DNA from: Rickettsiales bacterium
GTDB lineage: Bacteria > Pseudomonadota > Alphaproteobacteria > Rickettsiales > JABCZZ01
Direction of reading: 5' to 3'
Assembly (NCBI GenBank): GCA_035765535.1
Contig: DASTXE010000006.1
Coordinates: 496,001-560,000, forward strand
DNA: 64,000 bases
Of the stretch, positions 2,044-48,449 are shown piece by piece. A program made the translations under genes and the position numbers. How positions within the stretch are numbered: position 1 is the stretch's first letter; every line of letters begins with the position of its first letter. A model generated the notes under the pieces. It saw only the letters and a list, made by a program, of their open reading frames with translations, was not told the DNA's origin and did no database searches.

Positions 2044-3131
2044 TGCTCTATAACCTCCTGTTCCCGCTCGCTCATGATTACGCCCTCTTCAATCTCTTCA
2101 AGTATTTAACTTTCCGCAGCGGCGGCGCGGTGCTGACATCGCTGATCATGACGTTCTGGACGGGACCGCACATCATACGCTGGCTGAAAGCCAAACAGCG
2201 TGAAGGCCAGCCTATTCGTGAGGATGGCCCGGAATCTCATCTGCTCACGAAAAAGGGCACGCCGACCATGGGCGGCATTATGATCCTGCTGTCTGTATTC
2301 ACCTCTACTATATTATGGGCCGACATCACGAACCATTACGTTTGGGTCGTGCTGTTCGTGACGCTGGGCTTCGGCGCTGTGGGCTTTGTGGATGATTACC
2401 GCAAGCTGACCAAGCGCAACAGCAAGGGGCTCCCTGGCAAAATGAAGTTGCTACTGCAATTCTCGATCAGCCTCATTGCTGCAGTATGGATTCACAAAGT
2501 CGCCCCGGCGAATCTCTCAACCCATCTCGCGGTGCCGTTCTTCAAGGACGTCCTGATTAATCTAGGCGTATTCTATTTCATCTTTGCAATGATCGTCATG
2601 GTCGGCGCATCCAACGCCGTGAACCTGACAGACGGGCTGGACGGTCTCGCGATCGTCCCCATCGTCATCGCTTCCGGCTGCTTCGTGCTGATTTCTTACC
2701 TCGTAGGCAACCTGAAATTCGCGGACTATCTTCAGGTGCATCACATTCCCAACTGCGGTGAACTGGCTGTGTTCTGCTCGGCGCTGATCGGCGCGGGCCT
2801 CGGCTTCCTGTGGTTCAACGCTCCGCCTGCGCAGGTCTTCATGGGCGATACGGGCAGCCTCGCTTTCGGCGGTTCACTCGGCGTGGTGAGCGTGATCGTG
2901 AAGCATGAACTCGTGCTTGCCATCATCGGCGGCCTGTTCGTCGCGGAAGCGGTTTCGGTAATCCTGCAGGTCGGCTCATTCAAACTGACAGGCAAACGCA
3001 TCTTTAAGATGGCTCCGCTGCACCATCACTTCGAGAAGCTTGGCTGGAAGGAACCCACCATCGTCGTGCGCTTCTGGATCGTCGCCTGCATCCTGGCACT
3101 TATTGGGCTATCGACGCTGAAGATAAGGTAG
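2043..3131 (+). CDS. mraY: Phospho-MurNAc-pentapeptide transferase
   Basis: MraY is the integral inner-membrane enzyme that transfers phospho-MurNAc-pentapeptide to undecaprenyl phosphate and makes lipid I. The 362-residue polytopic protein carries the family signatures: an aspartate-rich loop DDYRKL, the block [25 protein letters not shown], and a C-terminal [10 protein letters not shown] histidine motif. All catalytic aspartates known for the family appear to be present. The start overlaps the murF stop by one base. The 3' end overlaps, tail to tail, the end of the leftward gene at 3100-4167 by 32 bases. Confidence 0.97.
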
Positions 3132-4167
3132 AAAGAGCATCCTGATATCGCTGCACGAACGATTCGGAGCGGTGTGAAAACATGTCTTTCGGTTCCTGCT
3201 GCTTTGCCAGACTGGAAAACTTTCTTGACTGTGGAACTTCTTCACGCAATGGTCCTGCTTGTTCCTGTGCCGGTATCTGCTCTGCCATATCTGGCGTCGA
3301 TTGATCAGTTATCTTGTAGTTGCTTCTGAACACGCGCCGGAATACAGAGATACCATATGCCCCGGAAATAGCCATACCGATGGCAGCACTCGATAATATA
3401 TGCTTAGCCTCTTCCTTGCTCTTACCCGATTTTTTCCATCCTTCTATTCCATTCAGCAATGGAGATATGACATCCAGTATTCCACCGATGATTAACTCGC
3501 GCTCGTATTTCAATGCCAGCTTCATCTTTCCCTTGCTATCTATTTCATGTTCACTCGCAATTTCCTGTGGCCGTTCCTTAAAATGCCCGTAACCGTAAAA
3601 TGCTTTCATGCCAACAGTTACCAGGGCCGAATACAGCCTTATCCTTTCTTCAGGGTAAGCACGCTCGCCTTCCGCCAGGCCAATGCCATGGGCTTTCAAT
3701 CCTTTACGCGTATTATTGTAAACAGTTAAAGCCTGTGCCGGTAGAATGGCAAGATATTCAAATTGCGAAGAAGAACGGCTCGGATGTCTTAGCACATTTC
3801 CCACGCGCTGGAATACGGTATTCCCTTCCGGGATCTGTGCTCCTCTTCCGGCCCAAAATGCCCATGATTTTTCTCCCATGGCCATAAGACTGGACGTTAC
3901 ACGAAGCTTATCCACTTCCCGAACGCCATGCACCTGCCGTACCAGAGCGCTGCGCGCATTCTGGTAATACGCGTAGATACAGGCAAGCATGCTGAAACTA
4001 TCAAATCTGTGCTCTTTATCGAAACGCGACTTCAGGTAAATCCATGCTTTATTTGTATTATCATATCTGGAAATAGGCCGTGCATCGCCTTGCGCCATGT
4101 CAATAGACCCCGCATACACAGGCGCTTTCTTTTTATTCTCTTGTGCTGTTTCCGGAAAAACAGGCAT
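3100..4167 (-). CDS. Hypothetical protein, 355 aa
   Basis: I do not recognise this protein. It has no signal peptide, and the N-terminus is polar and lysine-rich. The central part is mostly helical-looking, with a hydrophobic stretch near residues 260-275 ([15 protein letters not shown]) that could be one membrane segment. The last 70 residues are polar, rich in Gln, Ser and Glu, and look disordered. It lies alone between mraY and the amidase gene, transcribed leftward, and its last 32 bases overlap the mraY end on the other strand. The long intact frame on the strand opposite to its neighbours supports a real gene; its role cannot be inferred. Confidence 0.6.
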
Positions 4168-22293: not shown

Positions 22294-22368
22294 TCCGCGG
22301 TAGCTCAGTGGTAGAGCAATCGGCTGTTAACCGATCGGTCGTAGGTTCGAATCCTACCCGCGGAGCCA
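22294..22368 (+). tRNA. tRNA-Asn (anticodon GTT)
   Basis: TCCGCGG at the 5' end pairs with CCGCGGA at the 3' end, followed by G and an encoded CCA. The D-arm is AGCTCAGTGGTAGAGC. The anticodon GTT (22326-22328) sits in CTGTTAA, and the T-arm has GGTTCGAATCC. The 3' end is the integration site of the island that follows. Confidence 0.96.
22351..22362 (+). repeat. attL core in tRNA-Asn
   Basis: ATCCTACCCGCG lies in the T-arm and acceptor end of tRNA-Asn and recurs at 39387-39398. The match resumes with GCCA after a 3-base gap, as expected for an attachment core that restores the tRNA. Confidence 0.75.
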
Positions 22369-27733: not shown

Positions 27734-27841
27734 CTACCCCCAAATAACCCAGCCGATTCCAATCCCCATCACCAGATTCCACACCCCTACAAAAAAGTAG
27801 ACTAAAATCACATCCGTCTTGGTATCTTCTTCTTGTTCCAT
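27734..27841 (-). CDS. Small single-helix membrane peptide, 35 aa, copy A
   Basis: The peptide has a charged N-terminus (MEQEEDTKTD) and then one hydrophobic helix ending in the tryptophan-rich GIGIGWVIWG. A GGGGAG box lies 3 bases before the ATG. Copy B at 46938-47051 matches it at 24 of 35 positions, with mostly conservative changes, which indicates selection on the protein. The size and shape are those of type I toxins or small membrane regulators. It lies inside the island between the FRG gene and hsdM, is transcribed leftward, and has a long leader with further small frames. Function is not known. Confidence 0.65.
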   Translation of the reverse strand: MEQEEDTKTDVILVYFFVGVWNLVMGIGIGWVIWG

Positions 27842-27929
27842 ATGCTCCCCTATAAAAATGGTGGCCGGGGAGCCGATACTTATTTCTAATTCTACCGCAG
27901 CCTTTAAGGGTAAACCCTCTGAACATACG

Positions 27930-28052
27930 CTACGATCTCCCCAGCCATAGAAAAATACCACCAGAACCGTTTGGAACTGATGGCCGGGGAGTTAGTAAAC
28001 CTTCCATAGGAAAAGTCGCACATGCCTTTAGCTTGCGCCTGAACATACGCAT
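27930..28052 (-). CDS. Possible 40-aa leader ORF upstream of small peptide
   Basis: ATG 28052 follows GGGGAG and opens a 40-codon frame (MRMFRRKLK...FLWLGRS) that stops at 27930. The stop lies 4 bases before another ATG (27926), which starts a 69-codon frame overlapping the 35-aa peptide in a different phase. The arrangement could couple translation through the leader, like mok and hok. The protein sequence itself has no recognised features, and it may be only a regulatory frame. Confidence 0.3.
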   Translation of the reverse strand: MRMFRRKLKACATFPMEGLLTPRPSVPNGSGGIFLWLGRS

Positions 28053-28156
28053 ATGCCTCCCCGACCGAAAGCCGAGGAGTGAGAATAACGGTCACACAAA
28101 CCGCCTATGGAAGAGGTTACTACGCCCCAGAACGCTTACATTGCGTTCATGGGTAA

Positions 28157-28185
28157 ATAATGGATTACCTTGGGTAGAGTGTCAA
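28157..28185 (-). promoter_or_regulatory. Promoter of small-peptide copy A
   Basis: Read leftward: TTGACA (28185-28180), a 17-base spacer, CATTAT (28162-28157). Copy B has exactly the same -35, spacing and -10 although the spacer sequence differs, which supports a real promoter. Confidence 0.65.
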
Positions 28186-28326
28186 GAAAGGAGTATAAAT
28201 TAACGTCGTAAAGCAGAAACGACTGAATAAACAGCAATTTACAACCTTAACGCTTAATTTTAGTATCTTTATTCGCAGAAACAATTTATGAATACTTTAC
28301 GCACAAGAAATAGGACTGAATAAGAG

Positions 28327-46937: not shown

Positions 46938-47051
46938 TTATCCCCAGATCATCCACCCTATCCCAAGCCCAAGCAGCAGGTTCCATAACCCTATAAAGAA
47001 ATAGAGCAGGATCATATCCGCCTTGGTATCTTTCTCCCGTTCCATATACAT
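46938..47051 (-). CDS. Small single-helix membrane peptide, 37 aa, copy B
   Basis: Like copy A at 27734, the peptide has a charged start (MYMEREKDTKAD) and a hydrophobic helix ending in GLGIGWMIWG. The ATG at 47051 follows GGGAGA with 5 bases between; ATG 47045 would align with the start of copy A. An in-frame upstream ATG (47126) would extend it to 62 residues, and a related upstream reading frame is recognisable but interrupted in copy A. Being present twice with conserved sequence argues for function; the kind of function (toxin, regulator) is inferred only from shape. Confidence 0.65.
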   Translation of the reverse strand: MYMEREKDTKADMILLYFFIGLWNLLLGLGIGWMIWG

Positions 47052-47196
47052 GGCGATCTCCCATAGAAAAGCATCATCAGGAACACTGATGGCCGGGTTG
47101 ATAAATCGCTTGTAATGGCAGCACATGGTCTGGGCAGACAGCCCAACTGCCTGAAGTGAGGCTCAAAGCCTCGTGAACACGCTTGTTCACTTATGG

Positions 47197-47225
47197 ATAA
47201 TGGAGAAGTAAGATATGGGTGTCAA
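47197..47225 (-). promoter_or_regulatory. Promoter of small-peptide copy B
   Basis: Read leftward: TTGACA (47225-47220), a 17-base spacer, CATTAT (47202-47197). The predicted transcript would start near 47190, exactly at the GTGAACA hairpin. The elements and spacing equal those of copy A. Confidence 0.65.
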
Positions 47226-47609: not shown

Positions 47610-48449
47610 ATGAAACAAACGCCACCTATCCACCCGCAAGGCTTCACACTGATCGAATTATCGATCGTGTTGGTTATTGTCGGGCTGATCGTAGGCGGTA
47701 TTCTGGTCGGACAGGATCTGATCACTTCCGCATCGGTGCGCGCTCAGGTGGCGCAGATTGAGAAACTGAATACGGCCGTGCATGCCTTCCAATATAAATA
47801 CGGCGGTATTCCGGGGGATTTGGAACTGAGCCAGGCCAGCAAATTCGGTTTCATCACCAATGCATGCGACGGCCGTAACGGCGGGCGGGATGGCAATGGC
47901 AAGCTGGAAGGCTATTACGGCACCCCTTATTATCTGGACCAATTCTTAGGGGAAACGGAATTATTCTGGGAAGATCTGAGCACGGCCCAGCTGGTGAGCG
48001 GCACCTATCCCGGCGGCAGCACGACGCGTGACTGCGATTACAACAATTCTAATATCCTGACACTGACGCCAGGACCGGACTATATCGGCAACTTCATTCC
48101 AGCCGGAAAAATAGGCTTCGGCAATTTCGTGCATGTCTATACGGATCTTTCCTTTAACTGGTACGGCCTTGCACAGATTACACCCAACCCCACTTACGGC
48201 TACGTTCTTGCGGCAGCACCAAGCATTCCGGTAATCTCCGCATACAACATTGACGCAAAGGCGGATGACGGCATGCCCAACACGGGTACGATTCAGGCAC
48301 AATACCTGACCGGCTACGCCATTACGCTGGCCCCCAACAACACCGCTCCTAACTATGCTACCTGTTACGACACGACGTCGAAAAAATATTCTGTCGGCTA
48401 CAATAACGGCACCGGCCCTAACTGTGCCCTCTCCTTCCGGTTCCAGTGA
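47610..48449 (+). CDS. Type IV pilin-like (pseudopilin) protein, paralogue 1
   Basis: The N-terminus HPQGFTLIELSIVLVIVGLIVGGILVGQDLI is a class III signal: cleavage after Gly, methylated Phe, Glu at +5 and a membrane helix. The rest is a secreted domain of about 240 residues with four cysteines, ending in CALSFRFQ. The gene at 51141 has the same plan (AVHAFQYKYGGIPGDL here, AVHAFQLKYRYLPGDI there; CALSFEFQ at its end), so the two are paralogues. They need a type IV pilus or type II secretion machine, which is not in the window. Confidence 0.88.
   Translation: MKQTPPIHPQGFTLIELSIVLVIVGLIVGGILVGQDLITSASVRAQVAQIEKLNTAVHAFQYKYGGIPGDLELSQASKFGFITNACDGRNGGRDGNGKLEGYYGTPYYLDQFLGETELFWEDLSTAQLVSGTYPGGSTTRDCDYNNSNILTLTPGPDYIGNFIPAGKIGFGNFVHVYTDLSFNWYGLAQITPNPTYGYVLAAAPSIPVISAYNIDAKADDGMPNTGTIQAQYLTGYAITLAPNNTAPNYATCYDTTSKKYSVGYNNGTGPNCALSFRFQ

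Follow-up and report, generated by a model that had tools for sequence, protein, structure and literature searches.

A probable C4/sRNA-Xcc1-type leader switch upstream of a small membrane peptide gene in a Rickettsiales defence island

Type I toxin peptides controlled through their leaders, as in tisB/istR, are small single-helix membrane peptides encoded behind a long inhibitory leader. In phages, the C4 RNA is a leader RNA processed by RNase P, in which segment b′ covers the ribosome-binding site and segment a′ binds upstream (PMC5320573; PMC12197685). A further RNA, sRNA-Xcc1, was characterised in Xanthomonas by Northern blotting and end mapping as a stable RNA of 88 nt (PMC2996969); it lies upstream of symE, a described toxin gene, in the most widespread Xanthomonas integron cassette (PMC12444791). 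The literature searched contained no description of the full-length element presented here, or of a cis-acting anti-Shine-Dalgarno (anti-SD) role for it, although an earlier description is possible. The comparisons below make it probable that the locus termed unit A is a chromosomal leader switch of the C4/sRNA-Xcc1 type that gates a small membrane peptide.

The window analysed, a 64-kb stretch of a 2.6-Mb Rickettsiales genome, contains two related units on the reverse strand, unit A (28185-27734) and unit B (47225-46938). Their genes specify peptide A (27841..27734, 35 aa; MEQEEDTKTDVILVYFFVGVWNLVMGIGIGWVIWG) and peptide B (47051..46938, 37 aa; 35 aa if translation begins at the in-frame ATG at 47045; MYMEREKDTKADMILLYFFIGLWNLLLGLGIGWMIWG), each with a charged start followed by a single hydrophobic helix with GWxIWG at its end. 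The two are identical at 24 of the 35 aligned columns and no third copy exists in the genome, confirming the two-copy small-peptide family proposed in a first-pass annotation of the window. The TTGACA-17-CATTAT promoters that had been predicted for both units were also recovered, each matching the consensus at 10 of 12 positions: that of A at 28157..28185 (-35 TTGACA 28185-28180, a 17-nt spacer, and -10 CATTAT 28162-28157) and that of B at 47197..47225, with the near-identical promoter blocks CTTTCTTGACAC and TCCATTAT equally spaced in the two. Both leaders are long and begin with a hairpin, H1, and its stem differs between the units as had been stated, being GAACGC..GCGTTC in A (GAACGCaatgtaaGCGTTC; 28130..28148) and GTGAAC..GTTCAC in B (GTGAACaagcgtGTTCAC, which together with an H2-like hairpin, GAGGCTTTGAGCCTC, occupies 47158..47190). 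Further along the leader of B, positions 47075..47096 hold the 12-mer CCGGCCATCAGT, common to A, and then a hairpin CATCAG..CTGATG. When leader folding was compared with that of dinucleotide shuffles, z was -4.8 for A and -2.3 for B.

The gene context agrees with the earlier placement of one copy within a defence island and one outside it. Unit A has an FRG-domain gene on one side and, on the other, hsdM of a type I restriction-modification operon. Its island carries tyrosine recombinases, lies beside a tRNA gene (22294-22365, followed by an integrase) and has hsdS, hsdR, Mrr, CHAT and Arr genes downstream, while the neighbours of B are ordinary chromosomal genes. The island as delimited here (22294-43000) contains the recombinases, FRG, hsdM/S/R, DUF3800, Mrr, CHAT and a TPR-Arr fusion next to the tRNA. 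A search of the rest of the 64-kb window for a second copy of that tRNA's 3′ end, such as might border the island, found none. A pilin-like gene at 47610, near B, has no RNA match.

Peptide genes A and B differ by 15 synonymous and 12 non-synonymous nucleotide changes (pS 0.69, pN 0.144; pN/pS 0.21), and their dN/dS of about 0.08 is far from the neutral value of 1. Since the differences fall mostly at codon positions 1 and 3 (11/1/15 for positions 1/2/3), and given the pS and pN values, both frames are under purifying selection, as far as 35 codons can show. Homologues beyond the source genome were found by profile searches of the class and the order. A profile of the two peptides gave a strong match in one genome of the class (E 1e-8) and a weak one in another; in the order, a profile with added members yielded seven accepted peptide genes in four genomes (A and B, one in G244, and two each in G312 and G324), plus one further weak match in G241. 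A few alphaproteobacterial genomes besides this one thus contain GWxIWG relatives, and the family is small and patchy. No match to it was found in Pfam, no significant match in PHROGs, and none by tblastn against phages and plasmids. Several weak tblastn matches (including L003 and L005-L011) were set aside as chance or unrelated sequences, and L163 and L165 are probably not genuine peptides. With its outside relatives and its frame under selection, the pair is what the first-pass annotation had suggested, a regulatory small-peptide family with a structured leader.

The leaders of A and B are not equivalent: that of A is a conserved structured RNA and that of B is not. The first-pass annotation missed this difference: the two units share the promoter and have a 5′ hairpin each, but the RNA domain is absent from B. 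A search of Rfam with both leaders returned nothing, and A gave no match to RF02221 (sRNA-Xcc1) up to an E of 5. The leader of A nevertheless shares a common architecture with those of three other loci (L004, L012 and L024). The peptide leader of L024 gives a weak match to sRNA-Xcc1, and a second L024 copy scores 56.2 bits, above the curated RF02221 cut-off of 53 bits; two further relatives, L035 and L145, reach 59.2 and 69.9 bits. The kinship of A with RF02221 runs through intermediates. Many RF02221 matches occur in a sample of the order (53-63 bits for the canonical loci, which the covariance model described below also finds), and in most of the loci inspected some 65 further conserved nucleotides lie upstream of the part that RF02221 covers. 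The element is a structured RNA of ~150 nt, and RF02221 seems to cover no more than its 3′ 87 nt. Both have a closing stem (s:a2), an apical hairpin with a GNRA-like loop and an A.CC ending; the ~65 nt that the element adds upstream comprise hairpin H2 with its pseudoknot, P2, H3 and segment a1.

A covariance model of the leader, as proposed in the first-pass annotation, made A a member of a widespread structured RNA family. This model, R1, was built from five sequences including A, so that the match of A itself (27979..28129, reverse strand; 153 bits, E 7e-39) is not independent. R1 recovered RF02221-type loci outside the training set with E values down to 1e-11. Within the order, 90 of 301 genomes gave matches, some of them as many as 10; in the phylum, 26 of 329 genomes did. 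The B leader gave no match (best score 4-5 bits), nor was any RNA copy found at B, L025 or L168 by R1 search or inspection. In unit B, a paralogue of A in both peptide and promoter, the RNA domain has been lost, and expression is probably different. In the source genome R1 detected A and one distant copy (L126, G000:C1:334161-334312; 47.5 bits). The L126 RNA precedes a gene for a 248-aa predicted secreted protein with a signal-like start, and an 8-bp pairing, UUUUCAUC:GAUGAAAA, joins the H2 loop of this RNA to its 3′ strand. One opposite-strand match, in L085 (E 0.047), was treated as false.

Within the A domain, read from its 5′ end on the reverse strand, hairpin H2 (GGGG-CGUAGUAA-CCUC, 28113..28128) has a loop that pairs with the 3′ strand UUACUAA. 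Segment a1 (CUCCUCGGC, 28071..28079) is an alternative partner of segment s (GGUCGGGGAG, 28057..28066), which forms the 5′ arm of the closing stem and marks the start of RF02221 in relatives. Segment a2 (CUCCCCGGCC, 27982..27991) is the anti-SD strand and pairs both with s, in a 10-bp closing stem GGUCGGGGAG:CUCCCCGGCC, and with the downstream SD. Behind this domain lies a second, partial tandem domain (27859..27946; weak R1 match of 13.6 bits, E 2.3), made up of s′ (GGCUGGGGAG, 27946-27937), an apical domain, a2′ (CUCCCCGGCC, 27872-27863) and an ACCA tail (27862-27859), whereas the tail of the first domain is AUCA, not CCA. The second domain sits just before the SD of peptide A, GGGGAG (27845..27850), which is complementary to a2 and a2′.

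Covariation was measured over 54 distinct sequences: 92.4% of pair cells were standard, compensatory change was seen in 44 of 47 pairs, and the score was 0.530, compared with 0.153 in shuffles and about 0.09 in slid structures. The 29 matches outside the training set behaved alike (92.4% paired; score 0.515 versus 0.150 in shuffles). As these alignments are fitted to R1, swap tests, which depend less on alignment, were added, each segment being paired with its own partner or with that of another locus. The pairing of the H2 loop with the 3′ strand, a pseudoknot such as UAGUAA:UUACUA, gave z = -15.6 and s:a2 gave z = -14.5, followed by a1:s (z = -7.6) and the H2 arms (z = -5.3), values that the shared ancestry of the loci can inflate. 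The minimum-energy "cloverleaf" closure of the 5′ GGGG with a2, which had been drawn into R1, is not a conserved helix (swap z -1.6).

The segments follow one another along the leader in the order a1-s-a2-SD. Across 74 loci, a2 paired with its own SD at -9.07 kcal, compared with -8.16 kcal for swapped a2 (P < 1e-4) and -1.9 to -4.3 kcal in control windows. A frequent SD sequence is GGGGAGUU, which is complementary to AACUCCCC over a greater length than a normal SD requires. These values are consistent with the idea that the leader of A folds into a pseudoknotted multi-hairpin domain in which the 3′ strand, a2, would act as an anti-SD. As long as s held a2, aided by the H2-loop pseudoknot, the ribosome-binding site would be free; were s to pair with a1 instead, a2 would cover the ribosome-binding site and translation would stop. 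A cut at the 5′ side of the tRNA-like closing stem is probable, as in phage C4 RNA, and once matured the RNA might repress in trans as well. What the computation shows is the RNA family with its covariation, the alternative helices, the complementarity to the SD across loci and the purifying selection on the peptide; we infer which way regulation runs, the processing, whether the RNA acts in cis or in trans, the trigger and what the peptide does. Several observations count against this reading: A is not detected by RF02221, its first domain lacks the CCA end, the loop repeat of phage loci (see below) is not clear in it, the downstream genes are too varied for one signal, and B has the peptide without the RNA, which is therefore not indispensable to the peptide.

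Alternatively, the RNA might be a processed small RNA with no action other than in trans, the downstream gene being incidental cargo. The description of sRNA-Xcc1 as a stable 88-nt RNA (PMC2996969) and the CCA-ended closing stem would suit such a role, but a2 suits the SD at its own locus better than it does those elsewhere and the gene is kept within about 10-160 nt of the RNA, and we regard this explanation as improbable.

Six GWxIWG genes, from five genomes, have the RNA immediately before them (A, L004, L012, L024, L088/L161 and L167), and a further one, in L164, lies at a greater distance downstream of a copy. Most of the genes behind the RNA do not encode peptides, and include those for lipoproteins, pilins, XRE regulators and phage antirepressors. 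The exact 21-nt apical-loop pattern GTYCAAGGCGCAAGCCYAAAG was found at 26 genome loci, nearly all of them in Alphaproteobacteria (Rhizobium, Microvirga, Bradyrhizobium, Xanthobacter and others), and at 6 viral loci, while near-identity DNA searches returned few relatives because the RNA diverges fast. Such strong conservation of the apical loop at 26 loci would be expected if its internal loop, GUCCAAGGC-GCAA-GCCUAAAG, bound a small molecule or second messenger and thereby chose between s:a2 and a2:SD, as in a metabolite-binding riboswitch. The leader has what is looked for in a riboswitch, namely a conserved aptamer and mutually exclusive helices (a1:s versus s:a2, and a2:SD), in a riboswitch-like 1-2-3-4 arrangement of segments, and many dispersed copies per genome precede genes for envelope proteins, pilins and regulators, as they would in a second-messenger regulon. 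The downstream genes, however, have no metabolic theme, and the phage members, with their target-loop repeat and antirepressor genes, behave as C4 RNA, for which no ligand is needed. A riboswitch is thus unlikely, though the most plausible of the alternatives weighed here.

Several of the genes behind the RNA form recognisable groups. A second family of small membrane proteins, with the pattern YSxWADLLxKF...IQALWLV, occurs at ten loci (L068, L069, L089, L070, L076, L078, L085, L087, L056 and L062), with three copies in Rhizobium skierniewicense; two of its members gave no match in Pfam. Pilin-like GFTLIELS genes stand directly behind the RNA at L061/L104, L107 and L108. XRE-type regulators are among the commonest genes in this position (L035, L037, L041, L054, L130, L132, L133 and L135), and several of their leaders have a local hairpin, CCUCGU..ACGAGG, over the SD. 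In L024, a canonical sRNA-Xcc1-like RNA (2041-2125, 56 bits) precedes a restriction-endonuclease-like gene (2155 onward) that is divergent from the peptide unit, which has its own RNA copy.

Phage copies link the RNA to C4. Outside the order, the RNA precedes antirepressor-type genes with P22_AR_N, Rha or Bro-N domains (Pfam), and RF02221-like sequences lie before ant in phages Aaphi23 and Pmp3 and before a KilA-N gene in Acinetobacter phage 4316. The C4 RNA of phages P1/P7 (RF01695) and c4-2 (RF02944) likewise precede antirepressor genes, and they have in common with the element a closing stem with a CCACC end, probably an origin as a processed leader and, as seen in phage-type loci, a 3′ strand complementary both to upstream sequence and to the ribosome-binding site. 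In phage-type loci the H2 loop is repeated 5-25 nt downstream, near the start codon (all 9 nt in L138, L141 and L142), so that the 3′ strand can bind either the 5′ half of its own RNA or the target; in Aaphi23 its pairing partner is the region about the ribosome-binding site of ant. Matches to downstream sequence were found in phage loci for both a′ (P = 0.002) and a2 (P = 0.001), and in chromosomal loci for a2 (P = 0.0003), with that of a′ being weak (P = 0.025). Unlike phage C4, chromosomal copies such as A precede other genes and lack the loop repeat; in A 5 of 9 nt agree, a fit that does not exceed that of swapped loops. Of 100 elements, 58 have a CCA 0-1 nt from their closing stem (41 tails begin CCA and 17 NCCA), against a chance expectation of about 3%. 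This CCA resembles the end of a tRNA acceptor and may point indirectly to 5′ processing by RNase P at the closing stem. The C4 (RF01695) and c4-2 (RF02944) models matched the element in none of the loci scanned, and it is therefore called C4-like here, not a member of C4. Two further pairings were rejected: the H2 loop as antisense to the downstream sequence (z -0.7; the loop is repeated there instead), and the P2 3′ arm as a general anti-SD, which fits in Aaphi23 but is unsupported across loci.

Unit A resembles tisB/istR-type systems in having a single-helix membrane peptide behind a long leader, and the first-pass annotation had proposed a type I toxin-antitoxin locus. In its classical form this would be a membrane toxin peptide held in check by an antisense RNA that is transcribed from the other strand. 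Besides the short hydrophobic peptide and its long leader, such a reading can draw on a weak promoter-like site on the opposite strand of either locus (28238-28266 for A and 47174-47201 for B) and on the position of the related sRNA-Xcc1 upstream of the toxin gene symE in Xanthomonas integron cassettes (PMC12444791). The promoter-like sites are, however, few, weak and near the chance level (3 versus a shuffle mean of 1.5, and 2 versus 0.8), and the one by A is positioned upstream of the leader and not within it, so that transcription from this site would run away from the leader. The conserved regulatory strand is that of the peptide itself, and most genes behind the leader RNA, among them the lipoprotein, pilin, XRE-regulator and phage-antirepressor genes, are not toxin-like. 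Unlike tisB/istR, unit A has no established opposite-strand RNA, and its leader family is predicted to control many other genes. The toxin-antitoxin proposal is thus unproven and its standard form disfavoured; we consider the latter very improbable.

A leader switch of the C4/sRNA-Xcc1 type would make a poorly understood Rfam "sRNA" one portion of a longer leader whose switching can be tested, and would link sRNA-Xcc1 to the C4-type phage immunity RNAs. An unannotated family of membrane peptides, one of them in a defence island, would gain a known control point, and the many natural copies, including those in annotated phages, could be used to study structure, processing and translation control. 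More tentatively, phage RNAs of this type may have been domesticated repeatedly as alphaproteobacterial leader switches (up to ~10 per genome) gating membrane peptides, pilins, lipoproteins and regulators, including peptide or SymE modules in which the RNA would serve as a same-strand antitoxin.

Some prophage-like modules seem to contain two RNAs, one C4-type and one sRNA-Xcc1-type: in L142 and L145, C4 or c4-2 and the sRNA-Xcc1-type RNA are ~1.4 kb apart and point the same way. In L139, a series of weak CRISPR-like repeats (2773-3133) was seen near an RNA-preceded gene of the Bro-N antirepressor type.
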